Part shown: piece by piece, positions 21,200 through 61,279 of the stretch | Numbering within the stretch: the stretch's first letter is position 1 | How the letters are laid out: each line of letters begins with the position of its first letter | Source of the DNA: Ruminococcaceae bacterium YAD3003 | GTDB lineage: Bacteria; Bacillota; Clostridia; Saccharofermentanales; Saccharofermentanaceae | Direction: 5' to 3' | NCBI GenBank assembly: GCA_900107185.1 | Contig: FNPA01000002.1 | Coordinates: forward strand, 1-64,000 | Length of the DNA: 64,000 bases | The notes under the pieces: generated by a model | Told to the model about the DNA's origin: nothing | Seen by the model: the letters and a program-made list of their open reading frames with translations, nothing else | The model's database searches: none | Translations under genes and position numbers: made by a program

Positions 21200-21228
21200 C
21201 GTGGCGTAACAAATTTTTAAGTTCATTG

Positions 21229-21325
21229 CTTATCAAGAGAGACTCTAGGGACCGGCCCGTTAAGAGTCCGGCAACCGCGGAAAGCAGCGGTGCCAATTCC
21301 GGCAGGGAAACCTGAAAGATGAGGA
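21229..21325 (+). ncRNA. SAM-I (S-box) riboswitch
   Basis: All parts of the S-box aptamer are in order: CTTATCAAGAGAG, GGGACCGGCCC, CCGGCAACC, a variable hairpin, GGTGCCAATTCC, and GGAAACCTGAAAGATGAG. P1 forms between CTTATC (21229-21234) and GATGAG (21319-21324). It senses S-adenosylmethionine and controls metK just downstream through a transcription terminator. Confidence 0.95.
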
Positions 21326-35752: not shown

Positions 35753-36931
35753 ATGGCTATCAACATCGCAATTTTAGGATTCGGTACGGTCGGCTCAGGT
35801 GTAGCTGAGACGCTCGACGTTAACAAGGACGTAATCGCAAAGCGTATCGGACAGGAGATCAATGTAAAATACATCCTTGATATCAGGGATTTCCCGGACA
35901 GCAGATTCGCCGGTCTCGTAACACATAATGCTGACGAAGTATTTACGAGCGACATCAAGATCGCAGTAGAGACGATCGGCGGCGCAAGAATCGCATATGA
36001 GTACACAAAGAGAGCGCTGTCTTCGGGTATCAGCGTTGTAACGTCTAATAAGGAACTCGTATCAACACACGGTCCTGAGCTCCTCGAGATCGCTGCTGCA
36101 AATAACTGCTGCTACTATTTCGAGGCTGCAGTAGGCGGTGGTATTCCGATCATCAGACCTCTGTACAAGTGTCTTGCAGCTAACAAGATCACAAAGATCG
36201 CAGGTATCGTTAACGGAACAACGAACTATATCCTCTCACAGATGAAGGATGAGGGTATCGATTTCGATACAGCATTGAAGCAGGCTCAGGCAAACGGTTT
36301 TGCAGAAGCTAATCCTTCTGCAGATATCGAAGGCATTGATGCACAGCGTAAGATCTCCATCCTCTCAACGATTGCAAATGACGGTGATTATATTGCGCCT
36401 GAGTCAATTTCTGCAGAAGGTATTTCCGCAGTAACGACAGATGATATGGCATTTGCTGATTCGATCGGTTGCGCAATCAAGCTTATCGCTCTTTACGAAG
36501 CAGGTGAGAAGCCTGTTGTATATGTAGCACCTGCACTGGTTGATAAGAGCAATCTTCTCTTCAACGTAAACGGTGTATTTAATGCGATCATGGTTGATGG
36601 TAACAGTTTGGGCCAGGCTATGTTCTATGGTCAGGGCGCCGGCACACTTCCTACGGCTTCTGCTGTATGCGGCGATGTATTGGAAGTAGCTGCTACAAAC
36701 GGTAAGCCCGCTGAATCAAGAGCCTGGAGCAAAGAGAGTGTTGATATCACACCTTATGATGAGATCAAGGCAGATATCGTTATCAGAGCTGATTCTTCAA
36801 AAGCTGTAACAGGTTATGAGAACCAGGCGCTCTCTGATGAGGCAATCCTCGTTAAGGGTATTGCTCATAAGGATATCGCTTCACTCGTAAACAGCCTCGG
36901 CGCTAAGTTCTGGATGCACTATCTTAAGTAA
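35753..36931 (+). CDS. hom: Homoserine dehydrogenase
   Basis: A 392-residue NAD(P)-dependent enzyme reducing aspartate semialdehyde to homoserine, the branch point to threonine and methionine. Nucleotide-binding motif ILGFGTVGSGVAE (residues 5-17), catalytic region GIVNGTTNYILSQM and the substrate part EANPSADIEGIDAQRK are clear. It is about 40 residues shorter than forms with a complete C-terminal ACT domain; the end looks like a reduced version, and the separate ACT protein upstream could supply regulation. Confidence 0.94.
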   Translation: MAINIAILGFGTVGSGVAETLDVNKDVIAKRIGQEINVKYILDIRDFPDSRFAGLVTHNADEVFTSDIKIAVETIGGARIAYEYTKRALSSGISVVTSNKELVSTHGPELLEIAAANNCCYYFEAAVGGGIPIIRPLYKCLAANKITKIAGIVNGTTNYILSQMKDEGIDFDTALKQAQANGFAEANPSADIEGIDAQRKISILSTIANDGDYIAPESISAEGISAVTTDDMAFADSIGCAIKLIALYEAGEKPVVYVAPALVDKSNLLFNVNGVFNAIMVDGNSLGQAMFYGQGAGTLPTASAVCGDVLEVAATNGKPAESRAWSKESVDITPYDEIKADIVIRADSSKAVTGYENQALSDEAILVKGIAHKDIASLVNSLGAKFWMHYLK

Positions 36932-36960
36932 TCCGGTTTTACCCGGACAATCGAAAGTAT

Positions 36961-38574
36961 ATGGATAACATCAAGGTTTTTATTTGCGAAGACGAAAGCA
37001 TCGTGCGTGAAGGATTGCGCGATATGATCCCGTGGGAAAAGTACGGGTTCGAGTTTGTCGGGGATGCACCTGATGGTGAGATGGCGCTCCCCATGATCCG
37101 CAAATTAAAGCCTGATGTTCTTATCACGGATATCACTATGCCTTTTATGGACGGTCTCTCACTTTGTAAGATCGTAATGGGTGAGCTCCCGAATATTAAG
37201 ATAATCATCATCAGCGGTTACAGTGATTTCGAATATGCCAGACAGTCTATCCAGTTAGGCGTTGAGCAGTATCTGTTAAAGCCTGTAACCAAAGCTGACA
37301 TGATCAAGGCTCTTGAAGGTATCAAGCAGAAGATTTCAGAAGAATCCGAGCAGCAGAATTACATAAGCAAATACGAGCAGGAGTTTAAGAAGTTCGAGAG
37401 ATTCTCACACCGTGCTTTCTTCGAGCGGCTCGTTGAAGGCTCTCTGTCTGTTCAGGAAATATACGAGCAGGCGAGTGAACTTCATTTGAATCTCTCAGCC
37501 AACGGTTATAACTTCGTTATCTTTACCATCCGTGATGCAAACCAGTCCGGCTATGCTGATGACGCTGCGAACGTTATGGAGAGCCTGTTTAATCACTTTA
37601 TGCAGTATCCGGATTACATTCTTTTCAGATGTAATCTCTTATCTTATGCAGTGCTCATTAAGGGCGATTCTGAGAATCTCGCACAGCTCGAAGACAAGTG
37701 TGTTGATGTTATCAGACAGCATTGTGAAGAAGCTGATTCAGATCTCGAGTGGTATGCGGCTGTAGGTGTTCCTACTAACAGATTAAGCGGACTGTCACAG
37801 TGCTATGCAGATGCGAACAGAGCGTTTGCATACAGACACTTATTCCCGGATAAGCATATCTTTACATCCGAAGTTTTTAAGACAGAACAGTATGCACCGA
37901 GCCCTAAGGATCTGGATTCCATCGATGCTGCTAAATTAGATCCTATGATCATCAGAAACTTCGTAAGGACCGGTACGGTAGCAGAAGTCGAATCATTTGC
38001 TGATGAATACATTACGAGTCTTGAGGTAATGGAGAATACATTCTTATTCAGATACTATCTTCTCCTTACCATCAGAGTTAATGTCGAGCTCGCATTAAGA
38101 GAAGCAGGCGTCGAAGAAATGGACATTGATTTCTCAATGCCTTCTGCCGAGATGAAAATCGATATTGATGAGATCAGACAAAGATTCGTAAGCATACTCA
38201 ACGCTGCGATTACTATCCGTGATGCGGAAGCAATGAAGAGGAGCAGCGACATTATCGACAGTGCACTGCGTTATATTGACAGCCACTATACTGACGAAGA
38301 TATCTCTCTTGATTCTGTTGCTATCGCAAGCAATATCAGTGCTAACTATCTGTCTGCTCTGTTCAGCCAGAAGGTCGGTCTGTCATTTGTTGAGTACGTT
38401 ACTAAGAAGCGTATGGAGAGAGCTAGACAGCTCCTTAGAAAAACTGACAAGAGATCCGGTGAGATCGCGAGCGAAGTAGGTTATAAGGATCCGAGATATT
38501 TCTCGTTCGTTTTTAAGAAGAAGCACGGCTGCACACCGAGTCAGTATCGTAACGGAGAGACCGAGGAAGAATGA
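36961..38574 (+). CDS. AraC-type response regulator (YesN-like)
   Basis: A 537-residue two-component response regulator. The receiver domain (1-120) has the acidic pocket EDE (10-12), phospho-acceptor D57 in LITDITMP, and K near 106 in LLKPVTK. A middle region of unknown fold follows, and the C-terminal 100 residues form two AraC helix-turn-helix motifs (SLDSVAIASNISANYLSALF and GEIASEVGYKDPRYFSFVFKK, each partly shown). It overlaps the kinase gene by 4 bases. It probably activates the sugar transport genes downstream. Confidence 0.92.
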   Translation: MDNIKVFICEDESIVREGLRDMIPWEKYGFEFVGDAPDGEMALPMIRKLKPDVLITDITMPFMDGLSLCKIVMGELPNIKIIIISGYSDFEYARQSIQLGVEQYLLKPVTKADMIKALEGIKQKISEESEQQNYISKYEQEFKKFERFSHRAFFERLVEGSLSVQEIYEQASELHLNLSANGYNFVIFTIRDANQSGYADDAANVMESLFNHFMQYPDYILFRCNLLSYAVLIKGDSENLAQLEDKCVDVIRQHCEEADSDLEWYAAVGVPTNRLSGLSQCYADANRAFAYRHLFPDKHIFTSEVFKTEQYAPSPKDLDSIDAAKLDPMIIRNFVRTGTVAEVESFADEYITSLEVMENTFLFRYYLLLTIRVNVELALREAGVEEMDIDFSMPSAEMKIDIDEIRQRFVSILNAAITIRDAEAMKRSSDIIDSALRYIDSHYTDEDISLDSVAIASNISANYLSALFSQKVGLSFVEYVTKKRMERARQLLRKTDKRSGEIASEVGYKDPRYFSFVFKKKHGCTPSQYRNGETEEE

Positions 38575-40007
38575 CGAAGCTTAAAGAGCTATTCAGGTCA
38601 GATTCTATCAGGGGCAAAATGTCCCGTCTGCTTATGCAGATGTTTATTCCGATCATTTTCATTTTCACGATCATTATCGCAATGGTGCTTACGCGTAATC
38701 TTATGTTTGCGTCTGTTAACGGCAACATCGCTGATGCTTCCGGATTCAACCAGAGGTTCAAAGAAGAAGTCGATCTCAACATGTATCTTTACGTTACCGG
38801 CATCAACGAAGACTGTCCGTGGGATGATGTAAATTCGGCCAGGGAACTGGCTGAGAGCCTTCTCGAGAGAACCAATAACGATGACAGCCGTAAGGCCATG
38901 AAAAACGTTCTCATCCTTTGCGATAACCTGAACCAGTACATGAAGGATATCGAACAAACAGAGCAGTACGATGAGCGTATGAAGCTGCTCGAGATCAATA
39001 TCTACGGCATCACACAGCTCATCGAAGATAACTTCTATTCTTATCTTTATCACGAAGCCGGAGAACTCGCGAGCATTCAGAAACAGTTAGATAACTGGCT
39101 CATAGCAGAGATTGCTTTCGTTATTCTCGTAATCGTTATAGTTATTCCTATCGTTCTTAAACGTGCCTTCCGTCTGAGCAGAAATATCACAGATCCTATC
39201 GTTCAGATGAACAGCCGTGTTGAGGCGATCGGTGATGGTGACTTAAGTGCGCATACTCCAGTAAAAACAGATGACAGAAATCTGGCATTGCTCTCGATGG
39301 GTATCGAAGACATGGCTGAGAGATTAAGTAAGCAGATCGAACTTAACCGTCAGGAACAGATTCACTTAAGAGAGACGGAGCTCTCATTGATCCAGGCACA
39401 GATCAATCCGCACTTCCTGTATAACACTCTTGATGCCATTGTATGGCTCATAGAAATCGGTAAGAACGATCAGGCAGAGCAGATGGTAACCAGTCTCTCT
39501 TCGTATTTCCGTTCGTTCTTAAGTGACGGTAAGGAGATCGTTACTATCGCAGAAGAAACCAATCACATCAGAAGTTATCTCGAGATCCAGCAGGTCCGTT
39601 ATAGAGACATTATGGAATACGAGATCAGTGTCGATTCTGAAATCGAAGAATATAAACTTCCGAAACTTACTTTGCAGCCTCTGGTCGAGAATGCTATTTA
39701 TCACGGACTTAAGCCTAAGCGCGGTAAGGGTAAGATCACTGTTACCGGAAAAACTGACGGAGATAAGATTATGCTCAAGGTTCAGGATACCGGTGCGGGA
39801 ATGGATGAGGAAGAACTCATAAATCTTAAGACGAAGATCCAAAATGAAGATACTACAAGCTTTGGTCTTGTTGCAGCTTATAAACGTCTGAAACTTCTCT
39901 ACGGTGAAGAGTTCCGCTTTGATATTGTAAGTAAAAAAGACAGCGGCACATCAATCAAGATCAGTATTCCCAGAAAGGCGAAAATTGAAAATGAAACGAT
40001 TCTTTAG
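38571..40007 (+). CDS. Sensor histidine kinase (YesM-like)
   Basis: A 478-residue membrane kinase. Two hydrophobic segments, about residues 19-43 and 172-197, bracket an extracellular helical domain of about 130 residues. A HAMP domain follows. The kinase part is of the His_kinase/LytS-YesM type: INPHFLYNTLDAIVW carries the phosphorylated histidine, and the ATPase part has VENAIYHGLKPK and GAGMDEEE. Typical members sense carbohydrates, sometimes through a binding protein. Overlaps response regulator and sugar-binding lipoprotein on either side. Confidence 0.92.
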   Translation: MTKLKELFRSDSIRGKMSRLLMQMFIPIIFIFTIIIAMVLTRNLMFASVNGNIADASGFNQRFKEEVDLNMYLYVTGINEDCPWDDVNSARELAESLLERTNNDDSRKAMKNVLILCDNLNQYMKDIEQTEQYDERMKLLEINIYGITQLIEDNFYSYLYHEAGELASIQKQLDNWLIAEIAFVILVIVIVIPIVLKRAFRLSRNITDPIVQMNSRVEAIGDGDLSAHTPVKTDDRNLALLSMGIEDMAERLSKQIELNRQEQIHLRETELSLIQAQINPHFLYNTLDAIVWLIEIGKNDQAEQMVTSLSSYFRSFLSDGKEIVTIAEETNHIRSYLEIQQVRYRDIMEYEISVDSEIEEYKLPKLTLQPLVENAIYHGLKPKRGKGKITVTGKTDGDKIMLKVQDTGAGMDEEELINLKTKIQNEDTTSFGLVAAYKRLKLLYGEEFRFDIVSKKDSGTSIKISIPRKAKIENETIL

Positions 40008-40977
40008 TCTTATATTGTGTCTGGCATTGGCAATTAATATCGCAGGATGTTCTTCTAAACCGGAGAAGACTGACGATAAGGATCTCTATGTTATCGGCTT
40101 TTCACAGGTCGGTGCGGAATCTGACTGGAGAATTGCAAATACAAAATCAATGACTGAAACCTTCACGGAAGAAAAGGGTTACGAACTCCGCATGGAAAAT
40201 GCGAGACAGATGCAGGATAACCAGTTTGCAGCTGTACGTACCTTTATCCTCGAAGGCGTTGACTGCATCATTATCGCGCCTACGGTTGAAGACGGATGGG
40301 AGACAGTCCTTAAAGAAGTCCAGGATGCAGGTATTCCCGTAATCATCATGGACAGATCTGTTTCTGTTGACGATAAGGATCTCTATCTTACTAATATCGG
40401 TTCTGACTTTTTGGAACAGGGAAATATGGCTGTTTCATGGCTCGAGAAAGAGACTGCAGATAAGCCTGCAAATGAGAGCGTAAGAATTCTTCACCTTCAG
40501 GGAACATACGGTGCAACAGCCCAGCTCCTCCGTACAAAGGCTCTGGAAGTCGCGGTTGCCAAACATAGTGACTGGGAATTTGCTGCCCAGCTTTATGGAG
40601 ACTTTACGGAAGCAAAAGCTTATGAAGTCGTTACTGATTATCTCAAGACTGACAGGAATATCGATGTTATCTACAGCGAGAACGACAACATGACATACGG
40701 CGCTATGCGTGCTCTTGATGATGCCGGAATCACATACGGAGAGAACGGTCAGGTAAAGATAATATCTTTCGATGCCACAAAGAGGGCTCTCCAGTATTGT
40801 CTGGACGGACAGATAAATCTTTGCGTTGAATGTAATCCTTTGCACGGACCAAAGGTCGAAGACCTTATCACTAAATACAGAAACGGCGAGACGATTCCGA
40901 AGCACGTTTATGTTGAAGAGACTGCGTTTACGAGTGCTGATCTTACGCAGGAATTTGTAGATTCGAGAGAGTACTGA
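39991..40977 (+). CDS. Sugar-binding lipoprotein coupled to the two-component system
   Basis: A 328-residue periplasmic-binding-fold lipoprotein: signal with lipobox NIAGCS, then a type I binding fold of the ribose/galactofuranose (YtfQ-like) family (DLYVIGFSQVGAESDW; VIIMDRSV; DVIYSENDNMTYGAMRAL; IISFDATKRALQYC). The start at 39991 is an ATG with AAAGG upstream; it overlaps the kinase gene by 17 bases. It has no own permease next to it. Since it is translationally coupled to the kinase, it probably presents the sugar to the sensor. It is a paralog of the binding protein at 42569. Confidence 0.82.
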   Translation: MKRFFSLILCLALAINIAGCSSKPEKTDDKDLYVIGFSQVGAESDWRIANTKSMTETFTEEKGYELRMENARQMQDNQFAAVRTFILEGVDCIIIAPTVEDGWETVLKEVQDAGIPVIIMDRSVSVDDKDLYLTNIGSDFLEQGNMAVSWLEKETADKPANESVRILHLQGTYGATAQLLRTKALEVAVAKHSDWEFAAQLYGDFTEAKAYEVVTDYLKTDRNIDVIYSENDNMTYGAMRALDDAGITYGENGQVKIISFDATKRALQYCLDGQINLCVECNPLHGPKVEDLITKYRNGETIPKHVYVEETAFTSADLTQEFVDSREY

Positions 40978-41025: not shown

Positions 41026-42087
41026 TCAGCCGCTGCTTCTAATATACAGTATCCAACGTACCGGATCAGGTTTATACGCTCTGTGTTCTGCAGCGGCGAG
41101 TACTGCGTCTGCTGCACGTGATGCGAGTTCTTTCTCGTTGTGGCCTAACGAAGTGATTCCGGCTGAACCGGAAGACAGATAACTGTTCTCAAAGCTTACG
41201 ATTGCGAGACGTCCCGGTACTGCAATTCCTTTTTGTTCCAACAGTTTTATAAGACGGTATGCGATCTCATCGTTGTGACAGATTACCGCAGTGCAGTCAG
41301 GGGACAGTGATGCAACAAATCTTTGCAGCATCTCATCGTTTCCCTTGATGAGGTTTGTTCTGTCTCTTGCAGTAAAGAAGAATGAATTATTCTCATCGAA
41401 AGCAATTCCGTATTCATCTAATGCCTTGATATAACCCTTGTATCTCTCGAGTCCTCTTGTGTCATCAACACGGAAGATGCAGGCCGTTTTACTGTGCCCT
41501 TTATCCTTGAGGTGTGAAACAAGTTTTTCCGCGCCTTTGTTATCGTCTTCTCTTATGCATAACGCGTTCTCAGGTCTGCTGTAAGAAGAATAGAGATAGA
41601 TTACAGGTATGCCTTTTGCATCGATCTGTTCAATGAGTTCTATGTTCGGATTCGGAATGATGTTTGCGATGGGTTCAATGATCACCGCAGAAGGTGACAT
41701 GGACAAAACATTTTCCAGTGCTTCCTTTTCTTTTGAGAAAGAGAAGTTTGTCCCATAGCAGACCAGATCATATTTCTCAGTCTTCAATGCAGCTTTTAAC
41801 TGTGAAATGAATTCAGGATTAATGTATTCGAATTTGTCACCCGTGATAAATACAACGGTGCTCTTGAGTTTGGCTGAATTATCCGCGAGATAAGATCCGC
41901 TGCCGCGCTTTTTAACAATAAGACCTTTATCTTCCAATACCTTAAGAGATGCTCTTATGGTCTGTCTGCTGCAGTCGTATTTCTGACAGAGTAATTCTTC
42001 TGTGGGCAGTTTGGTTTTACCGTCAGAACGCATGTGTCTGAGGTCTGCTTCGATCTTATATGCAATCCTGAGATATTTGTCTGCCAT
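41026..42087 (-). CDS. AraR-like GntR/LacI-hybrid repressor
   Basis: A 353-residue regulator with a GntR-type winged helix at the N-terminus (residues about 4-70, LPTEELLCQKYDCSRQTIRA) and a LacI/ribose-binding-protein fold as effector domain (about 75-353). This hybrid layout is that of AraR, the L-arabinose repressor of Bacillus. It faces the binding-protein gene of the ABC transporter and probably represses that operon when no sugar is present. A perfect palindrome near its own promoter could be its operator. Effector identity is inferred from the araD and kinase genes nearby. Confidence 0.82.
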   Translation of the reverse strand: MADKYLRIAYKIEADLRHMRSDGKTKLPTEELLCQKYDCSRQTIRASLKVLEDKGLIVKKRGSGSYLADNSAKLKSTVVFITGDKFEYINPEFISQLKAALKTEKYDLVCYGTNFSFSKEKEALENVLSMSPSAVIIEPIANIIPNPNIELIEQIDAKGIPVIYLYSSYSRPENALCIREDDNKGAEKLVSHLKDKGHSKTACIFRVDDTRGLERYKGYIKALDEYGIAFDENNSFFFTARDRTNLIKGNDEMLQRFVASLSPDCTAVICHNDEIAYRLIKLLEQKGIAVPGRLAIVSFENSYLSSGSAGITSLGHNEKELASRAADAVLAAAEHRAYKPDPVRWILYIRSSG

Positions 42088-42245: not shown

Positions 42246-42568
42246 GCTGTTGATATTTTTTCGTACTAAGGAATTTTTAATGTGACAAATTGACGTTGAT
42301 TTTTCCGTCTTTCCTGACGCCTGATTAGAAAATATCCAACAAGCTAACACAAAATTTCTAACAAAACCGAACTGGCATTTGTTATCTGCGCGAAAGTTGT
42401 ACGGTCCAGTCTTCGAAAAAACAAAGTTGTATTTAGTCAGATTGACCATTCGAAAAAACCTATATGAGATTCGTGGAACGGCCCGCCCGGGAGTGGTTAA
42501 GTGTAGGCATGAAGCACAGGATAGGCCTGTGACCCAAGAAATTCATTATGAGAAATGAGGTAAGAAAC
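42246..42568. other. Non-coding leader before sugar-binding protein gene
   Basis: No ORF with start signals is supported. Seen: TTGTACG at 42398-42404, like a half-site of Bacillus AraR boxes; the 11-mer TTCGAAAAAAC twice (about 42413 and 42449); TTGACC at 42442-42447 as a possible -35; and a small hairpin CACAGG-CCTGTG near 42517. The promoter of the binding-protein gene must lie here but cannot be fixed. Confidence 0.4.
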
Positions 42569-43597
42569 ATGAAAAAGTTCATGAAGGCTATGATGGCTGG
42601 TGCTCTTACAGTTGCAATGACAATGGGCGCAGCAGCATGCGGCACAACAACACCTACAGCAGCTCCTACAGAGGGACCTACAGAAGGACCTGCTACAGAA
42701 GCTCCTACAGAGGGTCCTGCAGCTGGTGACGAACTCATCAAGGTTGGTATCATCAATAACGATCCTAATGAGTCAGGTTATCGTACAGCTAACGACAGAG
42801 ACATGAAGGCTACATTCACAGAAGAGAATGGCTATGAAGCTTCTTTCTACTACAGCCTTAAGAACGAAGATCAGATCGCAGCAGCTCAGAAGTTCATCCA
42901 GGACGAAGTAGATTATCTCTTGATCTCAGCAGCTGGTACATCAGGTTGGGACGGAGTTCTTGAGCAGGCTCAGAAGGCTGGCATCAAGGTTATCCTCTTC
43001 GACAGAACAATCGACGCAGACGAGAGCCTCTATGAAGCTTCAATCGTTTCAGACATGGCTAAGGAAGGTCAGCAGGCAGTTGATTGGCTCGCTTCACAGA
43101 ACCTTTCTGAATACAAGATCGTTCACATCCAGGGCGTTATGGGTTCTTCAGCTCAGATCGGCCGTTCAGGCGCTCTCGACGATAAGGTAGCTAAAGAGGC
43201 TAACTGGAGCATCGTTGCTCAGCAGACAGCTGACTGGTCAGAAGAAACAGCTCAGCAGATCGTTCAGTCCGTTATCGACTCTGGCGAAACATTCAACGTA
43301 ATCTATGCAGAGAACGACAACATGGCTAAGGGCGCTGTTGCTGCTCTTGACAAGGCTAACATCTCTCACGGTGTAGGCAAGGACGTTATCGTTATCGGTT
43401 TCGACTGCAACACATGGGCTCTCCAGGAACTCCTCGCTGGTAACTGGAACTATGATGGTCAGTGCAATCCTTTCCAGGCTGCTTACATTGATGACATCAT
43501 CAAGAACGGCGCTACACAGAAGGTAGTCATCATGGACGAGAAGGGCTTTGATGCTACAACAATTACACAGGAAGACGTTGACAACTACGGAATCTGA
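42569..43597 (+). CDS. Sugar ABC transporter substrate-binding lipoprotein
   Basis: A 342-residue binding protein. The signal ends in lipobox GAAAC, followed by a flexible Pro/Thr/Glu linker of about 30 residues (repeats of PTEGP and APTEGP) and a type I periplasmic-binding fold of the ribose/galactofuranose family (KVGIINNDPNESGYRT; IKVILFDRTID; NVIYAENDNMAKGAVAAL; VIVIGFDCNTWAL). Codon choice is strikingly uniform (GCT, CTC, AAG, GTT), typical of a highly expressed gene. A strong hairpin terminator separates it from the ATPase gene, which would give excess binding protein over membrane parts. TGAGGT precedes the ATG at 42569. Confidence 0.92.
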   Translation: MKKFMKAMMAGALTVAMTMGAAACGTTTPTAAPTEGPTEGPATEAPTEGPAAGDELIKVGIINNDPNESGYRTANDRDMKATFTEENGYEASFYYSLKNEDQIAAAQKFIQDEVDYLLISAAGTSGWDGVLEQAQKAGIKVILFDRTIDADESLYEASIVSDMAKEGQQAVDWLASQNLSEYKIVHIQGVMGSSAQIGRSGALDDKVAKEANWSIVAQQTADWSEETAQQIVQSVIDSGETFNVIYAENDNMAKGAVAALDKANISHGVGKDVIVIGFDCNTWALQELLAGNWNYDGQCNPFQAAYIDDIIKNGATQKVVIMDEKGFDATTITQEDVDNYGI

Positions 43598-43659
43598 TAT
43601 TTGGTCCCCACCCGAATTAGCACTTTACCAAACCAAATATAAGATTTAACGACATTTGA

Positions 43660-43697
43660 TGTGCGATGCGATGACTCATCGCATCGCACATTCTTTT
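43660..43697 (+). terminator. Intercistronic hairpin/terminator
   Basis: A perfect 14-bp stem (43660-43673 with 43677-43690), loop ACT, then TTCTTTT. It likely stops most transcripts after the binding-protein gene or protects its mRNA 3' end. Confidence 0.85.
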
Positions 43698-43746
43698 CGG
43701 GAACATCCGGAAACAAGAAACAGGAAACAATTGTTAGGAGGAGATT

Positions 43747-45255
43747 ATGATTGAAGGCGCAGTTTTGGAGATGCGCGGGATATGTAAGTATTTCCCGGGC
43801 GTGCGCGCTCTTGAGAAGGTAGATTTCACTTTAAGAGAAGGGGAAATCCATGCTCTGATGGGCGAGAACGGTGCAGGTAAATCAACACTCATTAAGGTGT
43901 TGACTGGCGTATATCCAATGGATGGCGGCGAAGTAATGCTGTCAGACCACTTTGTACATATCAGATCACCACAGGATGCACAGAACGTAGGTATTGCAAC
44001 GGTATATCAGGAGATCACACTTTGTCCCAATCTTACTGTTGCAGAGAATATGTATATTGGCCGTACAAAAGGAGTTCTTACGGATTGGCGTATGATGAAT
44101 TCTTCTGCCGGCAGACTCCTCGAAGAATTAGGTATCCCTGTTTCACCAAAAGAACAGCTCGGTAACTGCTCCATCGCAGTTCAGCAGATGGTAGCAATTG
44201 CAAGAGCAGTTGATATGGATTGTAAGGTTCTTATTTTAGACGAACCTACATCTTCGCTGGATGAGCAGGAAGTTCAGAAACTGTTCAACCTTATGCGCGA
44301 CCTTAAGAAGAAGGGCGTAGGAATTATCTTCGTAACTCACTTCCTCGAGCAGGTATATGAAGTATGCGACCGCATTACCGTTTTGCGTGACGGTAAACTC
44401 GTTGGCGAATACGTCATTGAAGATCTGCCGAGAGTTCAGCTCGTTTCCAAGATGCTCGGTAAGGATTTCGATGATATGGCCGACATCAAGACGGAAGGCG
44501 ATGCGGATAGAATCGACCTTAGTGAATTGCCAGTATACCAGGCAAATAACCTTACCGGAACGACCGGAATAAAGCCGTTTGATTTTGAAATCCATGCAGG
44601 TGAAGTAAACGGCTTTACCGGTCTTCTGGGTTCCGGAAGATCCGAGAGTGTACGTGCAATTTTTGGTGCTGACAGAGTTGTTGGCGGAACCGTAAAGATG
44701 CACGGTAAGACCGTAAAGATCAGAAAGCCTTTGGATGCGATGAAGCACGGTATCAGCTATCTGCCTGAAGACCGTAAGCTCGATGGTATCGTTGGTGATC
44801 TCTCAGTTAGAGATAACATCATCCTTGCCCTCCAGGTAATGAAGGGATTCTTCAGGCCTTTCTCCCGTGCACAGGCTGAGAGATTTGCTGATTACTACAT
44901 AAAGCTTTTGAATATTAAAACAGCTTCTCAGGATACTCCTATAAAATCACTTTCGGGCGGTAACCAGCAGAAGGTTATTCTCGCAAGATGGCTTCTTGCA
45001 GATCCTGTTTATCTTATCCTCGACGAACCTACAAGAGGTATCGACGTAGGAACCAAAGTTGAGATCCAGAAACTCGTTTTAAAGCTCGCTGCGGAAGGAA
45101 AGAGTGTAACGTTTATCTCTTCAGAAATCGATGAGATGATCCGCACATGTTCTCGTCTTATCGTCATGCGTGACGGCAAGGTTGTAGGCGAGCTCAAGGG
45201 CGATGATCTCAATCAAAATAAGATCATGGCAACAATTGCCGGAGGTGAATCATAA
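43747..45255 (+). CDS. Sugar ABC transporter ATPase (RbsA/MglA type, two domains)
   Basis: A 502-residue protein with two fused nucleotide-binding domains. The first has Walker A GENGAGKST and Walker B VLILDEPTSSLD. The second has the usual degenerate P-loop (GLLGSGRSES), an intact signature LSGGNQQKV and LILDEPTRGIDVGTK. Such double ATPases power import of monosaccharides. TTAGGAGGAG precedes the ATG; the stop shares one base with the following permease start. Confidence 0.95.
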   Translation: MIEGAVLEMRGICKYFPGVRALEKVDFTLREGEIHALMGENGAGKSTLIKVLTGVYPMDGGEVMLSDHFVHIRSPQDAQNVGIATVYQEITLCPNLTVAENMYIGRTKGVLTDWRMMNSSAGRLLEELGIPVSPKEQLGNCSIAVQQMVAIARAVDMDCKVLILDEPTSSLDEQEVQKLFNLMRDLKKKGVGIIFVTHFLEQVYEVCDRITVLRDGKLVGEYVIEDLPRVQLVSKMLGKDFDDMADIKTEGDADRIDLSELPVYQANNLTGTTGIKPFDFEIHAGEVNGFTGLLGSGRSESVRAIFGADRVVGGTVKMHGKTVKIRKPLDAMKHGISYLPEDRKLDGIVGDLSVRDNIILALQVMKGFFRPFSRAQAERFADYYIKLLNIKTASQDTPIKSLSGGNQQKVILARWLLADPVYLILDEPTRGIDVGTKVEIQKLVLKLAAEGKSVTFISSEIDEMIRTCSRLIVMRDGKVVGELKGDDLNQNKIMATIAGGES

Positions 45256-46400
45256 TGTCAACTAACGAAAAAGCGATAAGCTCCAGCAATTCTGTCAAAA
45301 GCTTCTTTGCAAAAATAGTTCGCAACCAGCTGTTCATTCCGATTGCAGCGCTTTTACTGCTTATCATCTTTAACTTTGCAGCAGATATCATTCTTCATGC
45401 GGATACATCATTTTTCAAGATCGTTCTTGAACCGAGCAGCACAGGCAACATGGTTCTTTCAGGAAACCTCATTACCATTATCGATAATGCATCAGAGCTG
45501 GCACTTCTTGCCATCGGTATGACGCTCGTAACATCCGCATCAGGCGGTCAGGATATTTCCGTAGGCGCGACTATTGCAATTGCAGGTTCTACGATATTAA
45601 GAATAGTTAAGGGCTATTCTCCTGATATATCAGGCGCGAAATTCGCAGCAGTTATCATCGGTGCGTTCCTCTTATCTGTTATCGTATCTGCTTTGTTCGG
45701 TGCATTTAACGGTGCTCTTGTCGCATACTTCAAAATCCAGCCGATGGTTGCAACATTGATCTTGTTTACTGCAGGCCGTTCGATTGCCGCATGGATCAAT
45801 AACAACGATAATATTTCCATCAACGATACAAGATTCGGTTATTTCGGAAACTTTATCCCCGGAATTCCCGTTCCGACACCGGTATTCATTACGATTATCT
45901 GCATAATAGTAATAGCTCTTGTTTTGAAGTTTACTAACCTCAGACTCTATTCACAGGCAGTTGGTATCAACGCATCATCTTCAAGACTTAACGGTATCAA
46001 CCCTAAGACAATTAAGCTTTTGTCATTTATTATCCTCGGCATTTGCGTAGCCGTATGCGGCTTGATCAAGGTGTCACGAACATCTTCCATTACATACGCT
46101 GTTATCGCCAATAACATCGAAATGGATGCGATCCTTGCAGTCGCATTGGGAGGTAATAACTTAGGCGGCGGTAAGTTCAATATGACCGCATCTGTTCTGG
46201 GTGCTTATGTTATCCAGTTCCTTACAACCACATTGTTCAGAATGAAGGTAAGTTCAAGTGCGATCTCCGCATATAAGGCTATTGTAGTTATCCTTCTCAT
46301 CATCATGTCATCTCCTTTCATCCGCAAGTGGCTTGCTGACAGGAAGAACAGGAGACTCGCAGCCAAGGCCGGTTCTAACGTAAGAAAGGAGGTTGCTTGA
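45255..46400 (+). CDS. Sugar ABC transporter permease (RbsC/YtfT-like)
   Basis: A 381-residue permease of the BPD_transp_2 family with about nine hydrophobic segments. The family signature is seen in GGQDISVGATIAIAG and, near the C-terminus, ILAVALGGNNLGGGKFNMTASVLGA. It forms a heterodimer with the next permease. GGAGGTGA precedes the start, which overlaps the ATPase stop by one base. Confidence 0.93.
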   Translation: MSTNEKAISSSNSVKSFFAKIVRNQLFIPIAALLLLIIFNFAADIILHADTSFFKIVLEPSSTGNMVLSGNLITIIDNASELALLAIGMTLVTSASGGQDISVGATIAIAGSTILRIVKGYSPDISGAKFAAVIIGAFLLSVIVSALFGAFNGALVAYFKIQPMVATLILFTAGRSIAAWINNNDNISINDTRFGYFGNFIPGIPVPTPVFITIICIIVIALVLKFTNLRLYSQAVGINASSSRLNGINPKTIKLLSFIILGICVAVCGLIKVSRTSSITYAVIANNIEMDAILAVALGGNNLGGGKFNMTASVLGAYVIQFLTTTLFRMKVSSSAISAYKAIVVILLIIMSSPFIRKWLADRKNRRLAAKAGSNVRKEVA

Positions 46401-46401
46401 T

Positions 46402-47454
46402 ATGTCAATCAACACGCCCGCATTAAACGGTAAGAGCCTTAAACGCCGCTCTTCTTATACTGATACAAATCTCCTTTTGATCATCACTATCGCAGTATTT
46501 ATTGTAATGTATGTTTGTGCTGTGGTATTCCTTAAGAAGGGTTTTACCAAGCCGCAGATGTTCTTCAATATCCTTAATGAGAATGCATCACTGCTTGTTT
46601 TATCCTGTGGTATGACACTCGTAATGATCACAGGCGGAATCGATATCTCCGTAGGCCAGGTTACATCACTCGTTTGTATGGCTTGTGCCGTACACTTAGA
46701 GCAGAACGGCGGTAATGTTTTCACATCGATCCTCTTAGCTCTTGGTATCGGTCTGGCATTCGGTATCGTTCAGGGATTCCTCGTAGCTTATCTGGAATTC
46801 CAGCCGTTCATAGTCACACTGGCAGGATTGTTCTTTGCCAAAGGTCTGACGACGATCATAAGCAGCGACAGAATCAGCGTTACCAACGAAGCATTCGTTA
46901 AACTCTGCAGATATGAAGTAACTATTCCTTTCCTTGGTTCAGTAAATAAAAAAGGTATATTCATTCCTGCCTATGTAGAAATCGGTGTAGTCGTAGCACT
47001 TGTTCTCGTTGTTCTTCTTTTCTGTATGCTCAGGTGGACAAAGCTCGGACGTAATTTCTACGCTGTAGGCGGTAACAACCAGAGTGCAAACATGCTCGGT
47101 ATCAACGTTAAGCTTACAAAGTTTTTGGCTCACGTTCTCTGCGGACTTTGCGCAGGTATCGGCGGATATCTTTTCTTCCTCCATGCATGCTCAGGTTCAC
47201 CTCTGCACGCACAGGGTGCTGAAATGAACGCAATCGCTTCTTCCATTATCGGCGGAACATTGCTCTCAGGCGGTGTAGGTAATATCGCAGGTACTCTGTT
47301 CGGAGTATTGTCACTGTCAACAATCAAGATGATCGTTACTTCATTGGGATTTGACGATCCATGGTGGACAAATATCACCGTTGCATTGATGCTTTGTATC
47401 TTCCTCCTCGTTCAGAGTGTTATACTTTCACGTAAGAACAAAACAAAGAAGTAA
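46402..47454 (+). CDS. Sugar ABC transporter permease (RbsC/YjfF-like)
   Basis: A 350-residue second permease with the same signatures (TGGIDISVGQVTSL; ASSIIGGTLLSGGVGNIAGTLFG). Two different permeases next to one double ATPase is the layout of the galactofuranose (YtfQRT-YjfF) class of transporters. The ATG at 46402 is preceded by AAAGGAGG with a 9-base spacer and follows the previous stop by one base. Confidence 0.93.
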   Translation: MSINTPALNGKSLKRRSSYTDTNLLLIITIAVFIVMYVCAVVFLKKGFTKPQMFFNILNENASLLVLSCGMTLVMITGGIDISVGQVTSLVCMACAVHLEQNGGNVFTSILLALGIGLAFGIVQGFLVAYLEFQPFIVTLAGLFFAKGLTTIISSDRISVTNEAFVKLCRYEVTIPFLGSVNKKGIFIPAYVEIGVVVALVLVVLLFCMLRWTKLGRNFYAVGGNNQSANMLGINVKLTKFLAHVLCGLCAGIGGYLFFLHACSGSPLHAQGAEMNAIASSIIGGTLLSGGVGNIAGTLFGVLSLSTIKMIVTSLGFDDPWWTNITVALMLCIFLLVQSVILSRKNKTKK

Positions 47455-47475
47455 TTCTTTTAAGGAGGCTCAAAA

Positions 47476-49032
47476 GTGGATCTTAAAACAACAGCTCTCG
47501 GAATCGAATTGGGTTCCACCAGAATCAAAGCAGTACTTATCGATGAGAATCATCTGCCCATAGCATCGGGCGACTTCGAATGGGAGAACCAGTTAGTTAA
47601 CGGAATCTGGACTTATTCAGAGGAGATGATCCACCAGGGAATCCGTGAATGCTATAAGGCATTGAAATCAGATGTTGAATCGAAGTTCGGTGTTAAGCTT
47701 ACAACAGTCGGCGCCATCGGAATCTCTGCCATGATGCACGGCTATCTTCCTTTCGATAAGGACGGAAACAGACTTGCCGAGTTCAGAACCTGGCGTAATA
47801 CGATTACCGGTGAAGCAGCTGAGAAGCTTACAGACCTCTTAGGATTCAATATTCCGCAGAGATGGAGCATTGCGCATTTTTATCAGGCAATCCTCAATAA
47901 TGAGAGCCATGTTAAGGATGTAGCATTCCTTACAACTCTCGCAGGTTATATCCATTGGACTTTAACAGGTGAGAAGGTTATGGGTGTAGGCGAAGCATCA
48001 GGAATGTTCCCAATCGACAGCTCAACATGTGATTACAATGAGACGATGGTCCAGAAGTTCAACGGACTTACAGGTCTCGATTTAAGAAGCATCCTTCCTA
48101 AGGTAGTTTCTGCAGGTGAATATGCAGGTAAGCTCACAGAATCAGGCGCTAAGTTCCTTGATCCTGAGGGCGATCTCGAGCCTGGTATTCCTCTCGCACC
48201 TTGTGAAGGTGATGCCGGTACAGGAATGGTTGCTACGAATTCTGTCCGTATCAGAACAGGTAATGTCAGTGCAGGAACATCTGATTTTGCCATGATCGTA
48301 GTTGATCACGATCTTGGTGTTCACAGAGAGATCGATATGGTTACAACACCTGACGGTGCACCCGTTGCGATGGTTCACTGCAATAACTGCACATCTGATA
48401 TCAATGCATGGGTTAATCTTTTCTCCGAGTTTGCAAATCTTATGGGTGCTTCATACAGCAAGGGCGAGCTCTTTACTAAGCTCTTCCAGGTTGCGGAAGA
48501 AGGCGATGCTGACTGCGGCGGACTCCTGTCTTATAACTACTTCTCAGGTGAAGGTGTAACTGATCTTGATGAAGGCAGACCTGTTTTTGCGAGAATGCCT
48601 GACAGTTCTTTTACCATCGCAAACTTCATGAGAACACATCTTTATTCCGCTCTTGCTACTCTTAAGATCGGTATGGATATTCTCCAGAGAGAAGAGCAGG
48701 TTAAGATTGATAAGCTCCTGGGCCATGGCGGTTTCTTTAAGACTCCCGGAGTCGGCCAGAGAATGCTCAGCGCAGCAGTTAATGCGCCTGTTTCAGTTAT
48801 GAAAACAGCAGGCGAGGGCGGTCCTTACGGAATGGCACTCCTCGCATCTTACATGCTTAACCGCGCTGAAGGTGAGACATTGCCTGATTATCTTGATAAC
48901 AAGGTATTTGCTGATGCCGAGTGTTCTACTATAATGGCTGATAGCGCTGACGTTGAAGGCTTTGCAAAGTTCCTTGCGAGCTACGTAAAGGCGCTTCCTG
49001 TTGAGAAGACTGCTACGGAGGTATTCGGCTGA
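47476..49032 (+). CDS. FGGY-family sugar kinase, probable L-ribulokinase
   Basis: A 518-residue carbohydrate kinase. N-terminal phosphate loop: [14 protein letters not shown] (residues 7-20); substrate domain phrases [13 protein letters not shown] and RTWRNT; C-terminal ATP part [16 protein letters not shown] and [12 protein letters not shown]. It starts with GTG behind a perfect AAGGAGG. It overlaps araD by one base. In the L-arabinose pathway a kinase makes the L-ribulose-5-phosphate used by AraD, so ribulokinase is the best guess, although the sequence is not a classic AraB and another pentulose is possible. Confidence 0.8.
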
Positions 49033-49721
49033 TGCTTGAAGAACTTAAGAAGATAGTATGTGAGGCAAATCTGCTTTTGCCAAAGCACGGACTGGTTACA
49101 TTTACATGGGGTAATGTCAGTGGTATCGACCGTGAGAAAGGTCTCGTAGTCATTAAGCCTTCCGGTGTTGAGTACGATCACATGACGGCTGATGACATGG
49201 TTGTTGTTGATTTGGACGGCAAGGTAGTTGAAGGTAAGTGGAAGCCTTCTTCTGATACTGCTACACACGTTGTCCTTTATAAGGCTTTCCCTAATATTGG
49301 AGGCGTTGTACATACACATTCACGCTGGGCAACCAGTTTTGCACAGGCAGGAATCGCTATTCCTGCTATGGGTACAACACAGGGCGACTATTTCTACGGT
49401 GATATCCCTTGCACACGTCCCATGACTGATGAAGAGATCAAGGGCGAGTATGAGAAGGAAACAGGCAACGTTATCGTTGAGACTTTCGCAGGTTTGGATC
49501 CCGATGCAATTCCTGCTGTTAATGTTTATTCCCACGGACCGTTCTGCTGGGGTACTGATCCGATGAATGCAGTGCATAACGCAGTAGTTATGGAAGAGGT
49601 TGCATTCATGGACTACCACGCACTGATGCTCAATCCCGAACACAGGGACATGCAGCAGACGTTGCTGGATAAGCACTACCTAAGAAAACACGGAGCTAAC
49701 GCTTATTACGGACAGGGCTGA
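49032..49721 (+). CDS. araD: L-ribulose-5-phosphate 4-epimerase
   Basis: A 229-residue class II aldolase-fold, metal-dependent enzyme converting L-ribulose-5-phosphate to D-xylulose-5-phosphate. Motifs: TWGNVSGID (about residues 24-32), KPSGVEYD, the zinc-binding VHTHS, and HGPFCWG with a further histidine. Length is exact for AraD. Its stop codon is part of the terminator stem that ends the operon. The isomerase AraA is not in the window. Confidence 0.93.
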
Positions 49722-59803: not shown

Positions 59804-61279
59804 ATGAGTGAATTAACAAATCAGAGTAATATGGGTATTTGCTATCATTTCAATATGGATATTCCTGATCCGGATGTGATTTTCCACGACGGATACTATT
59901 ATCTGATTACCACAACGATGCACTTTTTTCCCGGTGGAGAAATACTCCGTTCTTCTGATCTGAAAAAATGGGAACACTATTCATATGTTTTCGATAAGCT
60001 CGAGAGCAGTCCTGCCCAGCGTCTTGAAGATGATGAGCATATCTACGGTAAAGGTATGTGGGCACCTGTTATAAGATTTAATGATGGCGTTTTCTATGTA
60101 GCATTTTCCTCCAATGACATGAACAAAACATATCTGTTCAGATCGGCTGATCTGAAGGGTCCGTGGAACAGAAGCGAAATTAAAGGTTTTTATCATGATC
60201 TGTCTTTGCTCTTTGATAACGGAAAAGCATATGTTGTTTACGGTAATACGGACATCCATCTCACAGAGTTAAATGAAGATCTTACGGGACCTAAGGAGGG
60301 CGGCATCGACAGAATAATAGTTGATGACAGCGGTAATCCGATGCTCGGGTTGGAAGGTTCTCATATATACAAGATTGACGGCAGGTATTATCTGTTCATG
60401 ATCCATTCCTTAAGAGACAGGTGGAGAAGGGTAGAAGCTTTATATGTTTCTGACAGCCTTGAAGGCGAGTTTACCGGAGGGGATATTTTCGATAACGATC
60501 TGGGAATCAGGGATTCAGGAATTGCCCAGGGAGGTATGGTTACCGGTCCGGTCGGCAATCATCTGATAATGTTCCAGGACAGTGGAGCAATCGGTAGACT
60601 TCCTGTAGTTGTTCCGTTTGAATTCAAAGACGGAATGCCTGTATTTGATGAGATAAACGAAGTTGAAGAAGCCGAACTTAACGGCCTTTGCGGCAGTGAT
60701 GATTTTGCTGACGGACATAAGGAATTTTGGCAGTTTAATCATGAGCCTGATATGGATCTTATTAAGTTCGATAACGGATTTCATATAACAACAGATAAGG
60801 TTTGCAGGAATATTTTCCATGCAAAGAACACACTCACACAAAAGACTTTAGGACCTAAGTGCAGCGCACAGGTAACAATAGATGCAAGTGAACTTAATGA
60901 TGGCGATTTTGCAGGTTTGTCTGCGTTCCAGGGTGATTATGCTTTCGCTGGTATTCATAAGAAAAATAACGGATTCTATGCGGTAATGATGAGTAATACC
61001 AGCAAGGGCGGAATTTGGGATTTAAGTGAAGAGGAAGGTATAATTGAATCGGAGGAATTGATTGACGGCAGCAGTCTTACCGTAAAGGTTGAATGCGATT
61101 TTACGGTTGATACTGCGACATGTTTTATTGAGACTTCTGACGGATTTAAACAGATAGGAACGGTTCATGATCTTCGTTTCAGACTAGACCATTTTACGGG
61201 ATCAAGATTCGCCCTGTCTTGTTTCTCGACAGTAAGTTCCGGCGGAACAGCGGTGTTTAACCGTTTCGTTCCGGGTTAA
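59804..61279 (+). CDS. Glycoside hydrolase family 43 (beta-xylosidase/arabinofuranosidase type)
   Basis: A 491-residue GH43 enzyme without a signal peptide, so it acts on oligosaccharides inside the cell. The five-bladed propeller (about 18-300) has the three expected acids: D22 in PDPD, D132 in FYHDLS, and E184 in LGLEGSHIY. The C-terminal 170 residues look like the beta-sandwich of the beta-xylosidase subgroup (GLSAFQGDYAFAGIHK). Substrates are probably xylo- or arabino-oligosaccharides, which fits the pentose genes at 43-50 kb. Ribosome site is weak. The next gene begins 16 bases downstream. Confidence 0.88.
   Translation: MSELTNQSNMGICYHFNMDIPDPDVIFHDGYYYLITTTMHFFPGGEILRSSDLKKWEHYSYVFDKLESSPAQRLEDDEHIYGKGMWAPVIRFNDGVFYVAFSSNDMNKTYLFRSADLKGPWNRSEIKGFYHDLSLLFDNGKAYVVYGNTDIHLTELNEDLTGPKEGGIDRIIVDDSGNPMLGLEGSHIYKIDGRYYLFMIHSLRDRWRRVEALYVSDSLEGEFTGGDIFDNDLGIRDSGIAQGGMVTGPVGNHLIMFQDSGAIGRLPVVVPFEFKDGMPVFDEINEVEEAELNGLCGSDDFADGHKEFWQFNHEPDMDLIKFDNGFHITTDKVCRNIFHAKNTLTQKTLGPKCSAQVTIDASELNDGDFAGLSAFQGDYAFAGIHKKNNGFYAVMMSNTSKGGIWDLSEEEGIIESEELIDGSSLTVKVECDFTVDTATCFIETSDGFKQIGTVHDLRFRLDHFTGSRFALSCFSTVSSGGTAVFNRFVPG

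Follow-up and report, generated by a model that had tools for sequence, protein, structure and literature searches.

The window analysed here, a stretch of 64,000 nucleotides from Ruminococcaceae bacterium YAD3003 (contig FNPA01000002.1), contains three consecutive genes whose products are a YesN-type response regulator, a YesM/LytS-type histidine kinase and a GafA/YtfQ-like sugar-binding lipoprotein. The kinase gene adjoins the regulator gene, and the kinase-linked binding protein exists besides the one belonging to a nearby importer. We consider it likely that the trio forms a three-component sugar-sensing system, in which the lipoprotein serves as the sensor of the kinase and the kinase acts through the regulator on the importer operon. 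Gene order, coding overlaps, conservation, correlated divergence, pocket residues and a predicted fold form the basis of this proposal.

In the mechanism envisaged, the sensor lipoprotein (39991-40977), whose tether is short, would bind a furanose sugar, most likely L-arabinofuranose, and in this state dock on the kinase's helical outer domain; the kinase would in turn phosphorylate the regulator. The latter would activate the divergently placed importer operon (42548-49721), probably via a conserved element at 42422-42476. The importer lipoprotein, on a longer tether, would feed the ATP-binding cassette (ABC) importer, and a GntR/LacI-type repressor would add a check by internal sugar. The ligand, the docking, the phosphotransfer, the target promoter and the effector of the repressor are parts of this scheme that we infer.

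Organization and conservation of the trio

A first-pass annotation of this DNA had described overlaps of 4 and 17 bases linking regulator, kinase and lipoprotein genes, and both are present in the segment 36961-40977: the regulator and kinase coding sequences share 4 bases, and those of kinase and lipoprotein share 17 if translation of the latter begins at ATG 39991. An alternative start, TTG in the same frame at 39985, follows an AAAGG motif at a distance of 6 bases, as opposed to 12 for the ATG. Being better spaced, this codon could be the actual start, in which case the overlap with the kinase gene would be 23 bases.

The nearest named contigs belong to Saccharofermentans and to related Oscillospiraceae metagenome assemblies, and a relative of the sensor lipoprotein (E <= 1e-40) is found in 93 of 115 genomes of the same family. 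Among 40 regions examined, 25 have the order regulator-kinase-lipoprotein, two have the order lipoprotein-kinase-regulator and three lack a visible kinase. A survey of contigs gave at least 597 stretches with the pattern, 570 of them encoding a relative. The 80 best by sensor similarity were analysed, so that the rates apply to close relatives; some genes fall outside the 9-kb flanks. The kinase gene adjoins the lipoprotein gene in 77 of these loci, which also hold a regulator in 73 cases, a second binding protein in 67, a match to the repressor in 63 and GafB in 60; kinase, regulator and second binding protein occur together in 53 of the 60 GafB-bearing loci.

The 4-base overlap between regulator and kinase recurs in 33 of the 66 pairs measured. 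For kinase and lipoprotein, a strict lipobox rule located a start in 50 of the 80 loci, with a 17-base overlap in 25 and a 4-base overlap in 11 of these 50; a lipobox is visible by eye in most of the sequences inspected among the 30 loci where the rule failed. Two Synergistota loci (L149, L154) have neither a lipobox by eye nor a kinase. The recurrence of the overlaps exceeds chance; yet many of the loci are close relatives and the events are not independent. Five loci (L151, L156, L157, L160, L164) are arranged differently, with kinase and sensor on one strand, the regulator convergent on the other and the importer divergent.

The interval 35753-36961 holds the gene upstream of the trio, presumably one for homoserine dehydrogenase, and the regulator gene begins 29 bases after it. 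This neighbour is present in only three relatives (L055-L057, two of which recur as L087 and L128). No promoter-like site was found between 36700 and 37000, upstream of the regulator gene, and scans for the sigma-70 consensus in front of both regulator and importer scored no higher than shuffle means on the relevant strand. Transcription of the trio may result from read-through from a housekeeping operon.

Divergence, tethers and pockets of the two binding proteins

The first-pass annotation had also proposed that one binding protein is made for sensing and the other for import. This split is favoured on several grounds: synteny is conserved, divergence is correlated, and tether length and the protein tree agree with it. 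Divergence was analysed in 49 of 104 candidate loci (the 80, a further 23 and the window), after exclusion of loci in which any of eight genes was missing at 75% coverage and of those whose sensor ends were identical. In this set the receiver motif TDI of the regulator is kept in each of the 48 loci (of 49) inspected. Distances of the lipoprotein correlate with those of the kinase at 0.95 and of the regulator at 0.96, as opposed to 0.67 with the importer protein; the latter correlates with GafC at 0.80 and with GafD at 0.83. Given the three transporter genes, the partial correlation is 0.89 between lipoprotein and kinase, a value reached in none of 2000 permutations, and 0.29 between lipoprotein and importer protein. 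Within the Saccharofermentans-like clade near the window (27 loci), the lipoprotein's partial correlations are 0.80 with the kinase, 0.72 with the repressor, 0.69 with the regulator and 0.40 with the importer protein. It is the contrast between correlations, not the permutation test, that carries the argument.

The tether of the sensor measures 13-20 residues in 44 of the 45 proteins placed (41 in the exception), while that of the importer protein ranges from 10 to 75 residues (n=41) and exceeds the sensor's in 31 of 41 pairs; its longest values derive from open reading frames (ORFs) that begin early. A tree of 74 proteins, rooted at the midpoint only, places 23 sensors in one clade (support 100/99) and importer proteins of the Y type in another of 21 rows (96/76). 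The sensor clade accompanies importers of four lineages: the Y type, the L118 type, the L133/L134/L148/L152 type and the L166 type. The two binding proteins of the window are 36% identical and fall in separate clades; a recent tandem duplication is not favoured. Sensors of L151/L156/L160 and of L046/L047 lie outside the main sensor clade, and a furanose-reading, GafA-type sensor, if real, possibly arose more than once, in these groups and in the 23-row clade. Two loci have a single binding protein between the kinase and GafBCD (L129, 8911-9939; L147, 8992-9993). These proteins group with two kinase-less Synergistota proteins (99/97) and possibly represent the undivided state of sensor and importer protein.

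Pocket residues were mapped by alignment to GafA structures and are numbered as in 6hbd. E28, R32, D105, R106, R163, N213 and D241 are identical in sensor and importer protein at all 49 loci. Position 31 is W in 49/49 sensors and Y in 49/49 importer proteins; at position 187 the sensors have F (38) or Y (11) and 49/49 importer proteins W; at position 24 the sensors have Q (45) or E (4) and 49/49 importer proteins N. The sensor thus has the GafA pocket set E28, R32, D105, W31 and F187 (E, R, D and W in 49/49; F in 38, Y in 11), whereas the importer protein keeps the E, R and D with Y and W at the stacking positions. The choice of Phe, and the roles of R106, R163, N213 and D241, we take from analogy with ribose-binding protein. 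PMC10191376 gives pocket roles in GafA to Asp105/111, Arg38, Glu28, one Trp and one Phe, and ties GafA to L-arabinofuranose and to araBAD genes. Judged from genomic context and pocket likeness, L-arabinofuranose is the most likely ligand. The earlier suggestion that both proteins sense the same sugar class stands as plausible, because they share seven charged or polar residues of the pocket; given the fixed difference in stacking aromatics, identical ligands are not established.

The first 266 residues of the kinase were modelled from 36 sequences as an all-helical structure, with a mean pLDDT (predicted local distance difference test) of 84.7 and a pTM (predicted template modelling score) of 0.58. 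By structure alignment, the LytSN domain of the XylFII-LytSN complex (5xsj_L) ranks second, with Z 13.7 and a root-mean-square deviation of 2.1 over 115 of 122 residues. The predicted fold fits LytSN and does not prove kinship.

Alternative explanations

Several observations weigh against the proposed sensing system. In ten of the 40 regions, importer genes follow regulator and kinase, and the GafA-like protein is encoded at the opposite end of the importer operon. The lipoprotein shows a partial correlation of 0.68 with the repressor (0.72 within the clade), which is no part of the sensor, and the value of 0.45 between importer protein and kinase is likewise above all 2000 permutations. Correlated divergence can stem from joint inheritance of a gene block; shared history contributes here, because the importer protein-kinase pair also beats all permutations, and the raised repressor value agrees with this. 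As to the fold, a designed bundle outscores LytSN (Z 15.1) and the chemoreceptor McpS ties with it (13.5), placing the similarity in the range of common bundles. Foldseek gave no match with E < 0.001: NarQ came first and LytSN ranked 20 and 34 (E 0.7 and 1.0; target TM-scores, for template modelling, 0.72 and 0.75). The sequence profile of the outer region matches HAMP domains and no LytSN. Finally, AraA was not found in this genome with PF02610 or with a relative's AraA protein as query.

If the block were simply inherited or transferred together, with no special functional link within the trio, synteny and correlated divergence would both follow, and the repressor value would find its explanation. 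However, the trio is intact in contigs of Saccharofermentans, Oscillibacter, Lachnospiraceae and Thermoclostridium while its neighbours change, and the coding overlaps recur among relatives, which leaves this explanation very improbable. The lipoprotein might instead serve the same importer as an additional substrate-binding subunit, the kinase sensing something else alone. The sensor is indeed nearer to GafA/YtfQ importer proteins (239 bits) than is the importer's own protein (132 bits), and L129 and L147 indicate that one protein can occupy both places. Yet the lipoprotein's partial correlation is 0.89 with the kinase, as opposed to 0.33 with either GafC or GafD when kinase and regulator are controlled for; the sensor clade is retained beside importers of several lineages; and the lipoprotein gene overlaps the kinase gene and no importer gene. 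We regard a second subunit as improbable, if somewhat less so than mere joint inheritance. The first-pass annotation had itself named service to a distant permease as a finding that would speak against its reading. No orphan BPD_transp_2 permease was seen in the genome, other permease families not having been searched: the family is represented by seven matches at three loci (including C12 and C18), each with its own binding protein.

A further possibility is that the two proteins bind different sugars, the sensor recognizing a furanose whose release signals that arabinan or galactan is being broken down, and the importer taking up another pentose or a hexose. The fixed changes at the stacking positions (W31 to Y and F/Y187 to W in 49/49 importer proteins) and at position 24 (Q in 45/49 sensors, N in 49/49 importer proteins) would fit such a division, as does the difference in ligand range between CuaD and CuaA (PMC10384115). 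Set against this are the seven shared pocket residues and the presence in the operon of AraD, which fits one pentose. Different sugars seem unlikely, although this is the best placed of the three alternatives to the sensing system proposed above.

The importer operon and related systems

As the first-pass annotation had stated, a paralog of the sensor and a transporter follow the trio (42548-43597 and 43747-47454), as does an AraR-type repressor on the minus strand (41026-42087), in which a GntR DNA-binding domain is joined to a LacI-type sugar domain (Peripla_BP_3). We take this to be the domain make-up of AraR. No palindromic AraR operator was identified at the locus.

Features of the trio and the importer operon (positions in the window)
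Feature	Positions	Strand	Evidence and remarks
YesN-type response regulator	36961..38574	+	ORF, Pfam: Response_reg + HTH_18 (+ GGDEF_2); REC, GGDEF_2-like middle, AraC-type HTH (helix-turn-helix)
YesM/LytS-type histidine kinase	38571..40007	+	transmembrane segment, helical extracytoplasmic domain (~residues 45-170), transmembrane segment, HAMP, His_kinase, HATPase_c
Sensing sugar-binding lipoprotein, putative, GafA/YtfQ-like	39991..40977 (ATG)	+	Peripla_BP_4; lipobox IAGC, tether 15 residues
Repressor, GntR (PF00392) + Peripla_BP_3 / LacI-type sugar domain (PF13377)	41026..42087	-	Pfam
Conserved element, ~55 bases, upstream of importer operon	42422..42476	+	recurring word pair, trained model
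Importer binding lipoprotein, GafA-like, Y/W stacking variant	42548..43597	+	Peripla_BP_4; likely start ATG 42569; tether 35 residues
GafB/YtfR-like ABC ATPase	43747..45255	+	YtfR 641 bits, curated cut-off 850
GafC/YtfT-like permease	45255..46400	+	YtfT 184 bits, cut-off 535
GafD/YjfF-like permease	46393..47454	+	YjfF 260 bits, cut-off 363
FGGY carbohydrate kinase	47476..49032	+	Pfam; no equivalog reached (XylB 112/380 bits)
AraD, L-ribulose-5-phosphate 4-epimerase	49032..49721	+	TIGR00760 411.3 bits vs cut-off 389.1

The transporter genes match YtfR, YtfT and YjfF best; only AraD, of all the operon's proteins, passes a curated cut-off. Neither binding protein reaches that of the YtfQ equivalog NF041827 (510 bits; sensor 239.2, importer protein 131.7). 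In the interval separating repressor and importer genes, 18 of the 49 loci share a gapped word pair, against a maximum of 4 in three shuffles. A model trained on 11 loci matches 22 of 49 at E < 1e-6, the 11 included, and within the window it finds only 42422-42476 (E 1e-13; next match 1.7). This element may serve as promoter, as regulator site or in both roles. A search of the genome for further regulator sites found an exact match to the pattern only at the known site; four others had 2-3 mismatches, compared with three in a reversed-pattern control, and none is claimed.

The FGGY kinase probably carries out the L-ribulokinase step, as its gene adjoins araA in AraA-bearing relatives. AraA lies within the operon of some relatives (the loci noted are L035, L036, L052, L059, L067 and L071), and in 11 of the 80; it occurs in only 15 of the 115 family genomes and is absent from 100, while AraD and the FGGY kinase stay. 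XylA was not found in this genome either. A fucose-isomerase-like protein (PF02952) adjoins a xylulokinase (XylB 554 bits vs 380) and may carry out the isomerase step; a role as simple AraA replacement was discarded, the protein being present in 9 of the 15 AraA-bearing genomes as well. On contig C24 (L083, 7693-13199), a XylB-type kinase, DUF4867 and a fucose-isomerase-like protein stand together, followed by two ORFs that resemble transketolase halves (by appearance, no domain scan). In three genomes of one genus (G005, G006, G007), each AraA match holds one internal TAG. Elsewhere in the window lie a Glyco_hydro_43 gene (59855-60409, 102 bits; one of four in the genome), a possible source of pentoses, and an S-adenosylmethionine (SAM) riboswitch (21227-21325, 64.6 bits) that immediately precedes an ORF which we take to encode S-adenosylmethionine synthetase.

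The logic of separate sensing and import is known from other systems. In Clostridium beijerinckii, XylFII-LytS-YesN and XylFGH, for D-xylose, likewise combine a dedicated sensing protein and a YesN regulator with a separate importer binding protein; the LytS-type kinase there has a helical outer domain, to which the predicted fold here is similar at a level that common bundles also reach. The XylFII genes are ordered sensor-kinase-regulator, the reverse of the regulator-kinase-sensor order here, and the sensor here is a GafA/YtfQ-like lipoprotein: its profile matches YtfQ chains at about 1e-85, and neither 5xsj_X (XylFII) nor 6sw4 is in the best 60 of 100 matches (60th, E 1.3e-9). A second locus built on this design, but comprising three binding proteins, lies on contig C18 (L084, 2172-13186). 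It encodes a Peripla_BP_4 protein matching XylFII (5xsj_X, E 2e-9) and 6sw4 (7e-6), a kinase and a regulator, together with a XylF-like lipoprotein, a ChvE protein (469 vs 460 bits), an ATPase and two permease ORFs. Judged from these matches, the genome holds an XylFII-like system alongside the Gaf-type one.

The L-arabinose system of Geobacillus stearothermophilus, whose parts we take to be those named AraPST and AraEGH with AraR, follows the same logic, repressor included. Here the order is reversed, the importer is Gaf-like and the sensor comes from another family, 6sw4 ('Arabinose binding protein') being matched by another protein of the genome. In Table 6 of PMC4428132, two binding proteins, a kinase and an AraC regulator are grouped with an importer, a GntR regulator, AraD and ribulokinase; PMC13068155 describes similar Parageobacillus loci. 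PMC10384115 credits C. beijerinckii and G. stearothermophilus with two binding proteins, for sensing and uptake, as in the Cua system of Ruminiclostridium cellulolyticum. There, CuaDSR and CuaABC, for cellobiose, pair a sensing lipoprotein and two-component system with an importer having its own binding protein; unlike the GafA/YtfQ-like pair of this locus, their binding proteins are of extracellular family 1 and serve a disaccharide. Thus, the design, which the first-pass annotation had presented as unusual, was already known (PMC10384115, PMC4428132); what differs here is the GafA/YtfQ-like sensor family and the reversed gene order. The furanose importers GafABCD and YtfQ-YtfRT-YjfF have the charged pocket common to both binding proteins here, although the binding proteins and transporter genes of this locus stay below the curated NCBIfam cut-offs; the available account in PMC10191376 gives GafABCD no sensing role. 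In the literature searched we found no description of a GafA/YtfQ-type protein as sensor of a kinase.

Free arabinose is mostly pyranose. It is conceivable, though on present evidence doubtful, that the kinase is switched by a protein recognizing L-arabinose in its short-lived furanose form. The cell would then sense arabinofuranosidases at work on its surface and not the free sugar. If true, a furanose-reading, GafA-type three-component sensor would represent a new sensing chemistry for two-component systems. The few worked-out pairs of sensing and import proteins are here extended to a locus widespread in Clostridia and to the furanose-binding GafA clade, and the pocket differences fixed in 49 loci provide a ready set of proteins for ligand tests. 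Were the sensor specific for furanoses, it would distinguish a polymer being digested on the spot from free sugar being present, a testable idea that bears on how gut bacteria time pentose uptake.

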